DNA of 51,667 nt, from contig JAIYBC010000059.1 in NCBI GenBank assembly GCA_027488845.1, forward strand, positions 1-51,667. The letters are read 5' to 3'. Both the position numbers and the translations under genes were made by a program. The notes below the pieces were generated by a model. It saw nothing but the letters and a program-made list of their open reading frames with translations, did not search any database and was not told the origin of the DNA. Source of the stretch: Verrucomicrobiales bacterium. GTDB lineage: Bacteria; Verrucomicrobiota; Verrucomicrobiia; Limisphaerales; UBA9464. Below are positions 19,896-33,901 of this stretch, one piece after another (the first letter of the stretch is position 1; each line of letters starts with the position of its first letter).

Positions 19896-21626
19896 TTGTC
19901 CGAGAACCCCGTTCCCACCTGGCATTGCGCCGACTGCGGACGTCCCGAGTCCGAGACCGGCCCGCTGACGACGACGACCCGCGCGTTCCGCCGGCCGGCG
20001 CCGCTGTGCGCCCCGTGCCGACACCGCTCGGCACGCCGGGGCGGCGTCGTCCTGTGGATGCTGCTGCTCGCGCCCGCCGTCGGCGCCTGGCTCGCACCCG
20101 TCCTCGTGCCCGACGTCGCGCTGAATCCCTGGGTCCAGCGTTTGGGCGGCCTCTATCTGTTCGAATCGCTGTTCGTCCTCCTGCATGAACTCGGCCACGC
20201 CGTGGCCGGGATGGCGGTCGGATACCGCGTCGAGCAGATCCGGCTCGGCTATGGTTCGCTGGTCGCCGCAGGACGTCTCCGCGGGACGGAGTGGCAGTTC
20301 CGCCTGGTCCCCTACGGCGGCGTCTGCTTCGGATTCCACCGGACCGAAACGCCTCCTCGAAAAGCCCAGGCGATGTTCCTGCTCGGAGGTCCGGCGGTGA
20401 ACGTGGTCCTGCTCGGGCTCGGGTGGGTCCTCGATGGCGCGCACCCGGTCGCGGACCGCCTGGCGCTCCCGTGGATCTTCGTCTGGGGGAACGCCTACCT
20501 GCTCCTCTGGAGCCTCATCCCGATGACCCACTCGATGGACGGGCGTCCGCTGCCGAACGACATGCTGCAGTTCTGGCGGATCTGGTTCCCGGCGAACGCG
20601 GACTCACCGAAGACGCGGGGTCGCCTCGGCCGTCGGAATCCACGCCTCGGCCGCCTGACGGGAGTGGCCGTCCAGTTCCTCGGCGGCGTGGTCCTCCTGC
20701 TCGCGGCCTTCCTGCTCTGGAACGCCGTGCGGGAACGGCATCCGGTCCCGTTGCTGGTCGGTGTCGGGATCTTCGTGCTCTGCGGCGGGATGCTGCTCGC
20801 GGTCGGCCGTTCCCTGAACCGACCCCGGCTCCGTGCCGCGCGGGACCTCCAGACGCAGTCGCTTCCCGACACGCTCGTTTTGCCGCACGTCGCCGACCAG
20901 GAACGCCTCACCGACGGCATGCCCTTCCAGGAGGCCCAGGCGCTTTGGCTGCGTTCGCAGACGCGCATCGAACAGGGACGTGCCGCCGAGGCGTTGCCCG
21001 ACGTCGCGGAACGGCTTCGGAAACACCCCGGCTGCCTCGCCCTGCACGAGATCGCCTTCAACGTGCTGTGGCATCTCGGCCGAACCGACGAAGCCCTTTC
21101 GGCCCTCGACTCGGCACGGGGCGTTCCCGGGATCGGCGAGGCCACACGGGCGGTCTTGGCCCACCACGAGGTCGGGTTGCTCGCCCGCGCGGGACGGACG
21201 GACGAGGCGGTCGCGGCCGCCGAGCGGGCCTTGGCCGGGTCCGGGGATCGCAGGATCCGGACCGCGCAACTCGATCTCCTGGCCTCCCTGCCGTTGCTCG
21301 CGGCCCACGGCGAGTTCCTGACGCAAGCCGACCGTTGGTCCGCCGAGGCGTTGGAACTGGATTCCTCTCCCACCATCCGGGCCACGCGGGCAGGCGTGCT
21401 GTGCGAACTGGGCCGCGTGGACGAGGCGGAGCCGCTGCTGCGATCCGTCGTCGCCGAGGCCACGGAGGCCGTCGACCTCGGATTGGCCCACCTCTATCTC
21501 GCACTGCTGGAACACCACCGCGGGAACAGGAAGGCCGCCCGGCGCGAGGCCTGGGCTGCCTTCTACCATTTTCCTGACCGGCGCCTCGTGGAACGCCTCG
21601 CCTCCGACGCATTGGCGGAGGGCTGA
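19896..21626 (+). CDS. M50-type metalloprotease with zinc ribbon and TPR-like C-terminus
   Basis: A 576-aa membrane protein. An N-terminal ribbon (CADC at 11-14, CAPC at 38-41) precedes a hydrophobic helix and the zinc protease motif HELGH (residues 97-101). A later MDGRPLPND segment fits the second metal-binding motif of the M50 family. Further membrane helices run to about residue 310. The last 230 residues are Ala/Leu-rich helical repeats (LAHHEVGLLARAGRTDEAV, RATRAGVLCELGRVDEAE) like TPRs and are probably cytoplasmic. M50 enzymes cut within or near the membrane, often in signalling. The TTG at 19896 is the likely start since the ribbon follows it at once. The stop codon lies in the first GGGCTGAA repeat. 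Confidence 0.82.
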   Translation: MSENPVPTWHCADCGRPESETGPLTTTTRAFRRPAPLCAPCRHRSARRGGVVLWMLLLAPAVGAWLAPVLVPDVALNPWVQRLGGLYLFESLFVLLHELGHAVAGMAVGYRVEQIRLGYGSLVAAGRLRGTEWQFRLVPYGGVCFGFHRTETPPRKAQAMFLLGGPAVNVVLLGLGWVLDGAHPVADRLALPWIFVWGNAYLLLWSLIPMTHSMDGRPLPNDMLQFWRIWFPANADSPKTRGRLGRRNPRLGRLTGVAVQFLGGVVLLLAAFLLWNAVRERHPVPLLVGVGIFVLCGGMLLAVGRSLNRPRLRAARDLQTQSLPDTLVLPHVADQERLTDGMPFQEAQALWLRSQTRIEQGRAAEALPDVAERLRKHPGCLALHEIAFNVLWHLGRTDEALSALDSARGVPGIGEATRAVLAHHEVGLLARAGRTDEAVAAAERALAGSGDRRIRTAQLDLLASLPLLAAHGEFLTQADRWSAEALELDSSPTIRATRAGVLCELGRVDEAEPLLRSVVAEATEAVDLGLAHLYLALLEHHRGNRKAARREAWAAFYHFPDRRLVERLASDALAEG

Positions 21627-28519: not shown

Positions 28520-29557
28520 ATGGAGAATTCCCCACGCAAGTCCTTGAAGATGGTGAGCTGTCCCGCCTGCCAGGCGAAACAGTTCATCCCGGGAGACCTT
28601 GCCCCGCTCGAGCGGGTGGCCTGCACGAAGTGCGGCAAGTGGGTCATGATGCCGATGATGCTCCGGCAGTACGAACTGCGCTCGGAGATCGCCTCCGGCG
28701 GCATGGGCACGGTGTACCGGGCCTGGGACACCGCGCTGCACCGGGAGGTGGCGGTGAAGCTGATGAAGAAGGAGTTCGCCGAGGACGAGGCCGCGGTGAA
28801 CAGCTTCGCGGTGGAGGCCCGCGCCTGCGCGCAGGTCAACCACACGAACATCATCCACATCTACACCTTCGACTACCACGAGGGGTACCGCTTCCTGGCG
28901 ATGGAGATCGCGGACGACGGGACCCTGGACTCGCGCATCGAGAAGGGCGGCACGGTGCCGGAACTCGACGTGTTGGACACCGGCATCAAGGTCGCCGGCG
29001 CGCTGCAGGCGGCCCTGAAGCGCGGGCTGCTCCACCTCGACATCAAGCCGGGCAACATCCTGTTCAGCGACGACGGCGAGCCCAAGGTCGTGGACTTCGG
29101 CCTCGCCAAGAAGGCCGACGCCGAGACCGACGCCTACGCACCGATCTTCGGGACGCCGTACTACATCGCGCCCGAGCGGGTCCGTCAGGAAGGCGACACC
29201 TTCCTTTGCGACATCTACAGCCTCGCGGGCACACTCTACCACGCGCTGACCGGGCACGTGCCGTTCGAGGCGCCCAGCGTCGAGGACGTGGTGGCCGCGC
29301 ACCTGGCGATACCGCTGAAGCCGGCCAGCGACGTGAACGCGGCGGTGAGCCGGCCGACCTCGGACGCCTTGAGCAGGGCGATGGCGAAGGATCCGCGTGA
29401 GCGCTTCCAGAGCTACGACGAGTTCATCATGGCGCTGACGGCGGCCCGCAGCCAGGTGCTGATCCGGCAGTTGACCGGCCGCGAGCCCGATCCGGGCGTC
29501 GTGGCCACGCCGGGCGCCGCCCCGGCATCCCCGACCCGCAGCTGGTGGCGCCGCTGA
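28520..29557 (+). CDS. soluble Ser/Thr protein kinase with N-terminal zinc ribbon
   Basis: A 345-aa protein with a Hanks-type kinase domain. The N-terminus has a four-Cys ribbon (CPAC at 14-17, CTKC at 35-38). Kinase motifs: ASGGMGTVYRA glycine loop, AVK (Lys80), helix C Glu99, catalytic HLDIKPGN (Asp174, Asn179) where the usual Arg is Leu, so it is a non-RD kinase, and DFG (Asp192). GTPYYIAPE follows. Activity is therefore likely without an RD-type activation-loop switch. No membrane segment or PASTA domains are seen, only a short Pro/Ala tail. Its partner is unknown. The gene ends 15 bases from the convergent sigma-fusion gene. Confidence 0.9.
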   Translation: MENSPRKSLKMVSCPACQAKQFIPGDLAPLERVACTKCGKWVMMPMMLRQYELRSEIASGGMGTVYRAWDTALHREVAVKLMKKEFAEDEAAVNSFAVEARACAQVNHTNIIHIYTFDYHEGYRFLAMEIADDGTLDSRIEKGGTVPELDVLDTGIKVAGALQAALKRGLLHLDIKPGNILFSDDGEPKVVDFGLAKKADAETDAYAPIFGTPYYIAPERVRQEGDTFLCDIYSLAGTLYHALTGHVPFEAPSVEDVVAAHLAIPLKPASDVNAAVSRPTSDALSRAMAKDPRERFQSYDEFIMALTAARSQVLIRQLTGREPDPGVVATPGAAPASPTRSWWRR

Positions 29558-29572
29558 GGGGATTGTCCCGAT

Positions 29573-32500
29573 TCAGGGTGCCGTCTCCGGCGTGGGGACC
29601 ATGGGAATCTCTCCCAGGTCCAGTTCACCAGTGTCAGCCCCGACCGTGGCCGTGGTCGGGGCCCTCGAAACGAGGAGCGGCGGGACGAAGGATCCATCCG
29701 GCTTCGGCGGTGCCGAGAGGTACGCCATGAACGAGTAGTCATCCGGTTCCACGCCCTCGATTGTGAACGAACCGTCGGGTTGAACCTCGGCTGGCAGGTG
29801 ACGTTGGAGGCGGGTTAGGCGCTGGACTTCCGGCAGGCCCGCCCAGCGTTGAAGTTCCGCAGGATTGCCCTGCACCTCCGGAGGCGGGACCGCAGCGTGC
29901 GAATGCAGTCCCACCCTCCAACTGCTGCCGGCGGGCGCGGAAAAGCCGGCAGGAATCCCGAGGCGCCCGCTGACACGGATCCCGCCTCCGAGCGTCACCT
30001 CGGCCGACTCCCCGGCATCGACGGTCACTTCCTTGGCCTGGCTCGCGTAGGAGGAGGTTTGTCCCGGCCCGAGGATCTCGACCACCCGGTGCTCGACCCA
30101 GAGCAAGCCCGGCGGAACCCGCGAGAACTCGAAGCGGCCGTCCGGGTCCGTGCGGGTGGAGAAGTCGTAGGTAAGGGCTTGGGAATAGGGCTGGAGGGTG
30201 CCCAGCGCGATGACCTTGCCCGCGACCCTTCCGGCCTTGCCCAGAAAATGCCCGGTGATGCGTCCCCAAGGCTGGAGGCGAAGGACGGGGTCCTGTTCCA
30301 GCGCGGCAATGGATATCTCGGCAAATCCTGCCGCCCCGGCCGCGACAAGGCTTTGGACCGCGGGGTCCTTGGACAGCTTGAGCCGGCCTGCCGCATCGGC
30401 CTTCCGAAGTGGGGCGCCGCCCTGGGACGGATAGCTCGCAAGTCCGCCGGTACCCAATGAAAGCGATGCCCCTGGGAAGACCAGCCCCACGTCCGCGCCG
30501 GCGACGGGACGTCCGGAAGGATCGACCACGGTGACCTCCAGTTCCGTCGCCTTCTCCAAGGCCACGTCGAGGGTGACCACGCCCTCTTCATAGCCGACGG
30601 GCCGGCTGGTCACGGGCACGTATCCCTCCGCCTCGAACTTCACCATCAGCCGCCGATCGTTGGCGCCGGAAAGCACCTGCTCGCCAACTGTGTGTCGGTA
30701 GGCTCCGCCGCTGAATTCCGGCCAAAACCGGCCGATGCTGCTGAATTGCGCGTTGGTGGTCCCGGTGACCGGATTGAAGTTGGGCCATCCCAGACCAAGG
30801 CGGAACCGCGGGATTGGGCGGCCGGTGGCGGCGTCCGTCACCTGACCCTGGAGCACCAGCGCGGCAGTGAGCGTGACCAAGTGCTCCATGTCGTCGGCGG
30901 GGATCTGCACGCCGTTGGAGCGCATATAGCCGGGGGCCTCGATGTCGAATCCATGGACTCCGGCCGGCGCGCCTTCCCAGACGGTGCGGCCCTCGGCATC
31001 GGTCCGCCCCTCGAAGGACGCCTGGAGCAACAGCGGGGGCTCCGCGCCCACGAGGGTGACCGGGGGTATCGTGTTCAGCCAAACCCAGACCTTGGGCAGA
31101 GGCTCGCCGGCGGCGTTGACCACTCGGATCCGCAGTGGGGTGCCCTTGGCCAGCACCAGGCGCAGCGGCTCGTTCACCGCCTTCAGGTCGGCACGGACGG
31201 TCTTCGCGGCGAAGCCCTTGGCCTCGGCGGTGACCAGCGTCGGGCCGAACTGGGCACCCCGGATCTCGAATCGGCCGTCGTCCGCGGCTTTCCCCTCGCG
31301 GCTTCCGGTGAACCCTCGGGAACCCACAAGGACGGACGCCCCGGGCACCGGCGCATCGGCCTCGTCGACGACCACGCCCTGGACCAAGGCTGCCTGCTTG
31401 AGGCGGAAGACATGCTTCTCGGCCAACAGCTGGCGCTCCAGTTCGTCGTGGTTGAGATTGGGCTGACCTTCGTACCCGATGGATTCGGACGGCTGGAACT
31501 CCGGGTGCTGAGCACTGCCGTAGATTCGCTTCAGCATCGGGGCCGCGATCCGGTGGATCCGCCAGCGGCCCTCCGAGTCCGTGGGAACCTCGATCCAGTC
31601 GAATTCATGGCTCTCGGTCTCGCGGCCCACGGAAACGTTGTCCGAGTGATTCCAGCCCACCTTGGCGCCGGCGACCGGCCTGCCGTCGGGATCGACCACG
31701 GTCCCCCCGATCAACGCCGCGCGTTCCAGGCGGACGATCCGGTTGGACGGAATGGTGTCTCCGAGCTCCGGGTTCCAGACCAGCTTGGTGTCGGCGAAGC
31801 CCTCGGAGACGGAGATGAGCTGCAGGCGGGTCGTGCCGGGAACGACCCGCACCCGGGCCACGCCGGCCCGGGAGGCCGTGAAGCTCTGCGAGGTGAAGTG
31901 CTGGTCTTCGTGGCCGCGGTAGTTCACCTGGACGTTTGGAACCGGCTGGCCGGAATCCTGGGCCAAGAAGGTCAGCACCAACACCGGTCCGGTTGGAAGG
32001 GGATCGGCGGAATAGGCCGGACCGGCTGTTGCCGCGGCGCCGGTGACCTTGGCGTCGGCCTGGGAATTTCCCAATGTGCCGATGCCGACGGGGGCGCCGG
32101 CGGACCGGGTGTCGGACAACGATGCTGGGGTCGCAACGCCTGGATCTCCTCCGAACCGCCAACTGCCCCACATCAGGCCGCCGATGCCGAGCAGCAGAAC
32201 ACACAGAGCTGTCGCCAGCTTTGCGCCGAATCCACTCCCCGCCACCTCGCCGGCCCGGCTCGCGGCCAGGGCGACCGTGGCGATACGGCCCGCCAAACCC
32301 GCCGGGGCCGCGGCGACGGCGTGGGCGCCCAAGGCCAAGCCGATGGCCGTCGCCGTGGAGTTGATGCCCCGCTTCGACAGGGCGCCGTGGAGCCTGTCCA
32401 GGGCCCGTTCGACCCGCATCCGGGCGGTGTTCTCGGACAGGCCCAGGCGTTCGCCGATTTCGGCGAACGGGCGCTTCTCGAAGAATCGAAGCAGCACCGC

Positions 32501-32908
32501 CTCGCGGTCCGCCTCGTCCAGGTCGTGCATCGCCTCGTCGAGCACGGGCCGGAGGCGGTTCCAGTCGGGTTCCGGACCGTCGTTGGAGAGGAGCTGGGAC
32601 ATGGCGTGGGCGGCTTGTTCGCGGGCGGTTCGGCGGGCCTCGGACCGGCGGTGCTCTGCGGCGGCCATCCGCGTGCTGGTGTAGAGCCAGCCGGTCAGCG
32701 AAGGATGCCCGACGAGCCGGGAAGCCTTGCGGGCGAGGTCGGTGAAGACCGACTGGGTGATCTCCTCGGCCGCCGGGGCATCCAGTCCGACCTGCCGCAG
32801 CGCCGCAGAATGGACGAGGTCGACGTGCCGCCGGAGGATCTCGGTGAAGGCGCCTTCCGAACCATCGCGGACAAACTGCCGGAGAAGCTCTGGATCCGTC
32901 GTGTTCAT
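29573..32908 (-). CDS. sigma-70-family (ECF-like) factor fused to membrane helix and Ig-like regulatory domains
   Basis: A 1111-aa protein. Residues 1-90 hold sigma region 2 ([42 protein letters not shown]). Residues 125-180 hold region 4 ([21 protein letters not shown], then [13 protein letters not shown]). A hydrophobic segment at about 184-215 and a clear transmembrane helix ([17 protein letters not shown], 231-247) follow. The rest, about 860 residues, has repeated carboxypeptidase-regulatory-type units ([43 protein letters not shown]). The layout puts the sigma part inside and the tail outside. ATG 32908 is preferred; 32929 would add seven residues. Divergent from the pseudopilin. No separate anti-sigma gene is adjacent. 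Confidence 0.88.
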
Positions 32909-33178
32909 CTTCCTACTCACTGCCGCCATCGGCGAAATCGCACACAATTCACGACGATCGCTCCCATGCGGCGTCAGTCTCGGCCCTGCCGTCCTGCGAC
33001 CGCTCACCCGATTTGGGATCCGATCACCCCGTGGCAGTGGGTTCCCATCCAGCCGCCGGGGGGCAACGGGAGGACTCTTCGCGGAACCGGCGGATCCGCA
33101 ACCCGGGTCTCCAGGACAGCCGTCCTCGCCCGGCGCTTGCGTGCCATTCCCCCGACGGCGCAGGGTGTGCACATTCCC
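32909..33178. promoter_or_regulatory. divergent region between sigma-fusion and pseudopilin genes
   Basis: The 270-bp gap must hold start signals for both genes, including any promoter of the sigma factor itself. I see no confident -35/-10 pair or operator. Confidence 0.35.
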
Positions 33179-33901
33179 ATGAGCGAGGGTCACGAATGGA
33201 CAGGGAGGAGGGCCTTCACCCTGATCGAACTGCTGGTGGTGGTCGCCATCATCGCGATCCTCGCCGGGATGCTGCTGCCGGCCTTGGGGCGGGCGAAGGA
33301 GAAGGCCACCTCCGTCCAGTGCCTCAACGGACTGCGTCAGATCTCCCTGGGACACTCGATGTACGCCGACGACCACCGCGGGCTCTTCCCGCAGAGGCGT
33401 GACTCGCAGCGCTGGCCGCATCAGCTCAAGCCCTACTACCAGAACCTGGCCCTCCTCAAATGCCCCGCGGACCGACGGCGGGTGACCATCAATCCGACGA
33501 CGCGGAACCCGGAGCCCGACGGAGCCCTGCGCAGCTACATCATCAACGGCTGGAACGACTACTTCCTGCTCCGGGCCGGCCTCCGAGACATCAACCAGAT
33601 GACCGGACGTTCGGTGCCGGAGTCCGCCCTGACCGAGCCCAGCCTGACCATCGTCCTTGGCGAGAAGCGGACGAACTCGAACCACTTCTACATGGACATG
33701 CTGGAGGGCACGGGCAACGACGTGGACCAGATCATGCGCGACCGCCACGGGACCAACGGAGAGCGTTCCAAGGGCGGCGGCGCGAACTACGCCTTCGCCG
33801 ATGGCAGCGCCCGCTACATGCGATACCGCGGCGCGCTCTATCCCCTCAACCTCTGGGCCGTGACCGACACCTACCGGACCAACCGCGCCATGAGCAACTG
33901 A
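33179..33901 (+). CDS. type II/IV pseudopilin-like protein
   Basis: A 240-aa protein with a prepilin signal: a basic leader then [28 protein letters not shown], where the leader is cut before the Phe/Ala and Glu+5 is conserved. The C-terminal half has [15 protein letters not shown], the F-x-DG pattern of verrucomicrobial pilin-like proteins. In related ones a His lies about ten residues before DG; here RHG is further off because of an insertion. Such proteins are processed by PilD and assembled into pseudopili of type II secretion or are exported. Divergent from the sigma fusion and possibly controlled by it. Confidence 0.9.

Follow-up and report, generated by a model that had tools for sequence, protein, structure and literature searches.

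What controls a sigma factor that appears to be built into the membrane, with no anti-sigma gene beside it? The question is raised by one open reading frame, on the minus strand at positions 29573–32908 (ATG at 32908, stop codon ending at 29573, 1111 amino acids), in a 51,667-nucleotide stretch from a Verrucomicrobiales bacterium (contig JAIYBC010000059.1 of assembly GCA_027488845.1), which is called the window below. In the encoded protein, a sigma factor of the extracytoplasmic function (ECF) type is followed by a membrane helix and a large tail. A preliminary description of the locus had proposed that the tail itself may hold or release the sigma part, and this overall interpretation is partly supported. 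The reading that we favour, and hold to be rather probable, is a one-protein transmembrane switch, in which a sensor and a tethered sigma factor share one chain, a protease releases the sigma part and the gene's own promoter closes a positive loop. Two results bear out the idea that the tail may control the anchored sigma part in place of a linked anti-sigma: the covariation of sigma residues with the promoter of the same gene, and the occurrence of the tail in proteins with a signal peptide or an M56 domain.

Architecture of the fusion protein

The fusion architecture noted earlier is real, and the protein can be divided as follows.

29573..32908, minus strand: coding sequence for an ECF sigma factor, linker, transmembrane helix, disordered stretch and exported-type beta array (open reading frame, Pfam, AlphaFold, relatives)
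32630..32836, minus strand: sigma-70 region 2, residues 25–93 (Pfam PF04542 and sigmaE fold match)
32390..32533, minus strand: sigma-70 region 4, residues 126–173 (Pfam PF04545 and sigL fold match)
32399..32437, minus strand: recognition helix, residues 158–170, with specificity residues N160, R163 and M164 (placed by homology; covariation with −35 bases)
32243..32368, minus strand: conserved, putatively cytoplasmic linker, residues 181–222 (conservation of G181 and P202)
32162..32230, minus strand: predicted transmembrane helix, about residues 227–249 (Kyte–Doolittle hydropathy, KD, 1.89; transmembrane-like in 21/21 long-tailed relatives)
31991..32152, minus strand: disordered stretch rich in Ala, Gly and Pro, residues 253–306 (AlphaFold; near-neutral evolution)
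29576..31990, minus strand: tail of transthyretin/CarboxypepD_reg-like beta-sandwiches, residues 307–1111 (Pfam, AlphaFold, fold comparison)

The placement of sigma regions 2 and 4 within residues 1–180 is upheld by three approaches that agree: Pfam (Sigma70_r2, E-value 5.8e-6, residues 25–93; Sigma70_r4, 4.9e-12, residues 126–173), the general ECF model of NCBIfam (TIGR02937, passed with 63.4 bits against a cut-off of 42.9) and fold comparison, in which the N-terminal part matches region 2 of sigmaE (Z 14.2, r.m.s. deviation 2.0 over 94 residues) and region 4 of sigL (Z 10.1, 1.7 over 71). Regions 2 and 4 are present and the other sigma-70 domains absent, as in ECF (group 4) sigma factors. 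A hydrophobic helix follows, as had been described for residues 231–247, but the most hydrophobic juxtamembrane window starts at residue 227 (KD 1.89). The large tail, put earlier at about 860 residues of Ig-like and carboxypeptidase-regulatory units, does carry CarboxypepD_reg (PF13620, 4.3e-37, in seven stretches reaching the end of the protein), but it is made up of about 805 folded and about 55 disordered residues, and its units are transthyretin/carboxypeptidase-D-like and not generally Ig-like according to Pfam and fold comparison. In fold, part of the tail resembles carboxypeptidase N in its transthyretin-like domain (Z 12.7, r.m.s. deviation 1.7 over 79), and similar domains too. The full-length AlphaFold model shows the sigma2 and sigma4 helices, low confidence at 219–306 and beta strands over 309–1105; in models of 90 relatives the helices of sigma2 and sigma4 are placed with confidence, the linker holds a shorter one at 186–196, and the membrane segment has a poor confidence of about 50.

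A large verrucomicrobial family under purifying selection

A search for this architecture in other genomes, which had been suggested as a check, brought out a large verrucomicrobial family. Matches at an E-value of 1e-15 or better were found in 45 of the 59 genomes searched, own genome included (for most of them, no more than 12 candidates were scored), and phylum-wide 13 of 194 genomes, again with its own, reach 1e-50. For the best 80 of 231 relatives from named genomes, the record title is verrucomicrobial in 74 cases, just 'bacterium' in five and 'Proteobacteria bacterium' in one. The family member so titled, L070, may be a binning error. Relatives fall into two length clusters, of about 1100 and about 400–580 amino acids, and members of either length share a conserved linker (G181 in 90/90, P202 in 88/90). 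The tails of the many paralogues vary and include tetratricopeptide repeats (TPRs) in L004 and HAF repeats in L043; a ten-row tail profile fails to separate tail families in the short members, few of which are named by Pfam. In the window's own genome, the paralogue L004 (G000:C36) has the TPR tail, L002 (C50) a small domain and L003 (C18) a coiled-coil-like stretch and a short part at the C-terminus.

Eleven relatives align with the window protein over most of its length at 31–96% identity and this, with the low ratios of nonsynonymous to synonymous change (dN/dS), places the fusion beyond chance. Against two relatives, dN/dS is 0.13–0.14 in sigma2 and 0.19–0.26 in the tail; in sigma4 it is 0.05 for one relative and not computable for the other, where there is no synonymous change. 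The sigma half and the tail half are thus both under purifying selection. The disordered stretch 253–306 is near-neutral in the same comparisons (1.1 and 0.47). Such a freely evolving junction would suit the production of two proteins, one a soluble sigma factor and the other exported on its own, by an internal start or prompt cleavage. We regard this as very unlikely, given that the frame is intact across the junction in most of the sigma-tail relatives seen and that the linker-helix unit is conserved whatever tail follows.

A family promoter immediately upstream of the gene

An upstream block common to the long-tailed genes was spotted by eye and with dyad counts: TTGTG...GCGG occurs in 10 of 17, against a shuffled maximum of 3–5. 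It was modelled as two blocks, TTTTGTGCGgTTT and GGCGGGTGtTAt, with a spacer of 7 or 8 nt, from 88 upstream regions of family genes from which generic ECFs, duplicates and near-identical upstreams had been removed beforehand. In this fitted set, 76 of 88 genes score at least 12 (shuffles, 0/880), and the model holds 27.8 bits of information, while refits on shuffles give 9.4–10.0 bits. Outside the fit, after removal of 6 of 106 genes that lay too near the fitted set, 47 of 100 score at least 12 and 63 of 100 at least 8 (shuffles, 0/1000). Several low scorers, among the 30 lowest listed, show an alternative TGT-NNNN-TTT −35 element at the same place. By these sequence criteria, most family genes are preceded by a predicted ECF-type promoter just ahead of the start codon. 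For the window gene, its parts are as follows.

32911..32949, minus strand: promoter-like element of the gene itself, with a putative autoregulatory role (family-model score 24.5)
32935..32944, minus strand: −35 element of the TGT-NNNN-TTT class, variant GCGA, in agreement with the N160/R163/M164 code
32916..32927, minus strand: −10 block, GGCGG then CAGT (proteins with E85 carry C here, 12/12)

The 90 nt upstream of the window gene are identical to those of the 96% identical relative in genome G013. The −10 block ends about 7–15 nt ahead of the start codon, so that the messages of family genes, that of L004 included, would be leaderless or nearly so. No RNA structure was predicted in the upstream element.

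When 12 whole genomes were searched with a 39-nt model and the 150 best candidates of each were scored, 13 matches reached an E-value of 0.05 or lower and all, by their coordinates, lie directly upstream of family genes; at least five of them are outside the rows of the model (G010:C60, G027:C56, G010:C7, G029:C70 and G029:C5), and weaker matches are mixed. In the window's own genome, the full composite promoter and the relaxed core TGTGCGNTTT-N11..13-CAG have one exact match each, the gene's own promoter. No other targets of the sigma factor were found in that genome, where matches with three mismatches number three, against five in a reversed control, and the promoter is absent from 11/11 of its ordinary ECF genes. 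The paralogue L004 has a weak promoter (score 6.7).

Recognition residues covary with the promoter of the same gene

In passages of published work on SigW (PMC6713349), recognition-helix residues read the −35 element. We compared the four variable −35 bases with 222 usable protein columns in 136 non-redundant gene-promoter pairs, obtained by thinning 178 at 85% identity; 10 of the original 188 had failed a loose site filter. This filter selects position and not significance, since it also passes 292 of 940 shuffles, and it ignores the four variable bases and so cannot create covariation with them. For the first variable base, the top column is M164 (z 54), followed by N160 (28) and R163 (24); for the other three the top column is R163 (z 31, 32 and 20). 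Outside region 4, no column exceeds z 12.7. Combinations at residues 160, 163 and 164 go with particular bases: N-R-M with GCG-N in 36/41 pairs, D-Q-K with CGGA in 22/25, D-R-M with TCGG in 10/11 and D-R-K with CCGG in 10/10.

One rule concerns residue 164 and the first base, G or T with methionine and C or A with lysine, which holds in 130 of 131 non-redundant pairs (171 of 172 before redundancy removal). The tree implies about 17 changes of residue 164, and the well-supported, phylogenetically independent pairs agree in 8 of 8 cases (p 0.008). The rule is also self-specific: within genomes, it fits a protein's own promoter in 90/90 cases and the promoters of its genome-mates in 238/402. For the −10 block, the top columns both lie in region 2: residue 85, with z of 21 and 14, and residue 78, with z of 17. 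The remaining −10 columns show weak or mixed covariation. K85 goes with G in 52/53 and E85 with C in 12/12, while N85 is mixed. The window protein has N160, R163, M164 and E85, and its promoter, TGTGCGATTT ... GGCGGCAG, matches what the code predicts. Todor and colleagues are said to have worked on ECF specificity (PNAS 2020).

This covariation with the self-promoter makes it very probable that the sigma part works and regulates its own gene. Autoregulation, which excerpts of a promoter survey state for most ECFs (PMC3817407), thus appears on comparative evidence in this family also. That the sigma part should be a relic in what is merely a surface protein is hardly credible: no point in support of it was found, dN/dS is 0.05–0.14 in sigma2 and sigma4 where computable, and the residue-promoter covariation also speaks against it.

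The tail is shared with signal-peptide and BlaR1-type proteins

A profile of the tail gave 48 matches across the 59 genomes, and the frame upstream of each was read. The partner is a sigma factor in 25, a signal peptide in 12 and an M56 domain in seven; four are unassigned, three being truncated by contig ends and one having a stop. Signal peptides were judged by eye, with no predictor, and one sigma row (G015:C334) was assigned from the earlier genome search. Pfam confirms M56 in both proteins tested (1.1e-45 and 1.8e-41); this peptidase domain, characterised by HExxH, is absent from the window protein. A BlaI-type repressor gene adjoins six of the seven BlaR1-type M56 genes, the seventh of which begins at a contig edge; these repressors were identified by frame reading, Pfam (Penicillinase_R in four) and tblastn. 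No BlaI relative was detected by tblastn in 16 sigma loci and the window.

In a quick tree of 43 tails, from which one M56 row was left out, the window's tail belongs to a clade of 14 sigma-fused tails (Shimodaira–Hasegawa-like approximate likelihood ratio test, SH-aLRT, 99), and the group nearest to it is made up of tails from M56 and signal-peptide proteins. This tree requires six partner changes, against 16.0 with shuffled labels. The tail is thus a mobile module that has swapped partners more than once. As it stands behind signal peptides and BlaR1-type M56 domains, it is probably extracytoplasmic and sensor-like; cysteine is absent from it, and most of the folds that it matches are extracellular or secreted domains.

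The M56 carriers L127, L169, L173, L174, L180 and L181, with their BlaI-type neighbours L348–L353, belong to pairs that possibly form a sensor array with a signal other than beta-lactams. Four signal-peptide forms (L035, L037, L130 and L131) end in a redoxin/thioredoxin-like domain.

Topology and release of the sigma part

A single membrane helix is supported by hydropathy. In the long-tailed set, the helix reaches a KD of at least 1.6 in 21/21 members and the linker passes as well in 5/21; among all 92 relatives, after rows L070 and L079 were dropped from the hydropathy and charge set, the helix does so in 76/92. Several points weigh against a one-protein switch with an outside tail. Lys and Arg are commoner after the helix than before it, at 1.91 against 1.24 in the 92 relatives and 2.10 against 1.57 in the long-tailed set; after exceeds before in 52/92 and the reverse holds in 14/92. 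The linker is itself hydrophobic, passing the same threshold in 31/92, and the window helix is modelled with a pLDDT of only about 50. There is no known protease, signal or cleavage for the family, its own-genome paralogues L002 and L003 have no family promoter, and tests of N160, Q163 and K163, with three to four independent pairs each, go in the right direction and are not significant. Read by the positive-inside rule, the flanking charges thus speak against an outside tail. Asp and Glu are also enriched after the helix, with 141 in total against five before it in the 92 relatives. The orientation proposed here follows from the homologous tails and not from charge.

The hydrophobic linker leaves room for another topology, in which a hairpin of two hydrophobic segments leaves the tail in the cytoplasm, where it would be an arm for protein interaction comparable to the WD40 tails of planctomycete ECFs. 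Both the linker hydropathy and the flanking Lys and Arg residues speak for it, and WD40-fused planctomycete ECFs do exist in print, in excerpts of PMC8567305. We nevertheless judge a hairpin improbable: few linkers of the long-tailed set match its helices in hydropathy, the linker is favourable in 0/92 on an apolar scale, and what precedes the homologous tails is a signal peptide or the M56 membrane domain, in keeping with the cysteine-free sequence and extracellular fold matches of the tail.

With an outside tail, the switch would work as follows. The N-terminal ECF sigma factor would be cytoplasmic, and a single membrane helix would tether it to a large beta-sandwich sensor on the far side. 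At rest, the tether and the conserved linker, the latter being the best candidate for keeping the sigma part inactive, would block it. On a signal at the tail, an RseP-like site-2 protease would cut the chain within the membrane helix or close to it. The freed sigma part would then bind RNA polymerase and transcribe promoters of the TGTGCG(G/A)TTT-N7-GGCGG type, and the gene's own promoter would be the first target, closing the positive loop, a step for which the comparative evidence is strong.

Release by intramembrane (site-2) proteolysis seems the likeliest switch, because IutY of Pseudomonas putida, the best-studied membrane-fused ECF, is cleaved by Prc/RseP according to parts of PMC5411451 and PMC8999054, and because the window's own genome encodes a separate RseP-like M50 protease with PDZ domains. 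The M50-type gene in the window (19896–21626, plus strand), to which a link had been floated earlier, is indeed present (Peptidase_M50, 9.3e-13, fused to TPRs), but it has a homologue in only two of the 12 genomes with long-tailed fusions, its own and the near-identical G013, and is thereby ruled out as the partner protease of the family.

It is also conceivable, if unlikely, that no proteolysis is involved: the sigma part would act while anchored, RNA polymerase being recruited to the membrane and the tail regulating by conformation, as in ToxR-like proteins. This would agree with the lack of any protease linked to the family, the window M50 included, and P202 of the linker (88/90) could be a conformational element; on the other hand, the characterised IutY works, in the same excerpts, via Prc/RseP cleavage, and the near-neutral stretch 253–306 would be a poor conformational relay. 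The one-protein switch with proteolytic release is therefore the reading we retain.

A tentative extension is that the lineage as a whole uses insulated one-protein circuits, each with a private, full-strength promoter only before its own gene and with exported sensors exchanged with BlaR1-type M56 proteins. If the switch works as proposed, one protein would replace sensor, anti-sigma and sigma factor, many times per genome and with different tails. The −35 bases would be predicted from residues 160, 163 and 164 and the −10 base from residue 85, and the tail would be expected to be exchangeable with the sensor of BlaR1-type transducers. The signalling of hard-to-culture Verrucomicrobiota, known mostly from environmental DNA, would become testable in Escherichia coli reporters, and the family may provide a set of orthogonal sigma-promoter pairs. 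The switch itself is a proposal, made by analogy with IutY.

Relation to known membrane-fused sigma factors

Membrane-fused ECFs (IutY, ECF48, ECF52 and ECF53) and an ECF promoter code are already known in principle. A membrane-anchored ECF does depart from the soluble majority, as the preliminary description stressed, but with IutY and ECF52 in print it is less unusual than was implied. In the available portions of the reports cited above, IutY (ECF243, a FecI-FecR hybrid) resembles the window protein in its cytosolic ECF part, single membrane segment and C-terminal periplasmic part, and in the absence of a separate anti-sigma gene; it has a FecR-type periplasmic domain of less than 200 residues and a TonB-receptor partner. 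The window protein differs by its transthyretin-like tail of about 800 residues and by belonging to a family with its own promoter, and no FecR domain was found in it by Pfam at an E-value of 1 or lower. The promoter survey, as excerpted, omitted FecI-like groups because they do not autoregulate (PMC3817407).

ECF52 (for example SCO4117 of Streptomyces coelicolor; also ECF48 and ECF53) is similar, from partial descriptions, in having an ECF sigma factor, a membrane helix, a low-complexity stretch and an extracytoplasmic beta domain, and positive autoregulation has been suggested for SCO4117. ECF52 carries a zinc-finger (anti-sigma-like) domain and is stated there to be confined to Actinobacteria; here, the HxxxCxxC motif occurs in residues 151–260 of 0/92 relatives, and no zinc-finger family was found in 90 N-terminal parts at an E-value of 0.001. 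The likeness to BlaR1/MecR1 and BlaI lies in the same tail module behind M56 domains with adjacent BlaI-type genes, whereas the window protein is without M56 and its output is a fused sigma factor. The WD40-tailed ECFs of planctomycetes (ECF57 and relatives) are, in the same partial accounts, likewise expanded, lineage-specific and provided with large C-terminal repeats, which are WD40 propellers there and transthyretin-like arrays here.

What sets this family apart is the lack of a zinc-finger or FecR part, the tail shared with BlaR1-type proteins, the many paralogues with varied tails and the measured self-promoter code. No description of the family or its promoter was found in the open-access literature searched, which did not cover the ECF re-classification paper and Jogler 2012, either of which may describe the family.

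Neighbouring genes

The earlier statement that no anti-sigma gene lies next to the sigma gene holds: a domain scan of six window genes turned up no anti-sigma, and over 17 loci no neighbouring gene cluster recurs in more than three (blastp at 1e-12, best 25 clusters, with neighbours compared with each other and not scanned for domains). The sigma gene is flanked by two plus-strand genes. That at 28520–29557, convergent with it, encodes a Ser/Thr protein kinase (Pkinase, 4.6e-44) and is shared, among the 17 loci, only with that of the near-identical G013. The divergent gene at 33179–33901 encodes a pseudopilin-like protein with an N-terminal methylation motif.

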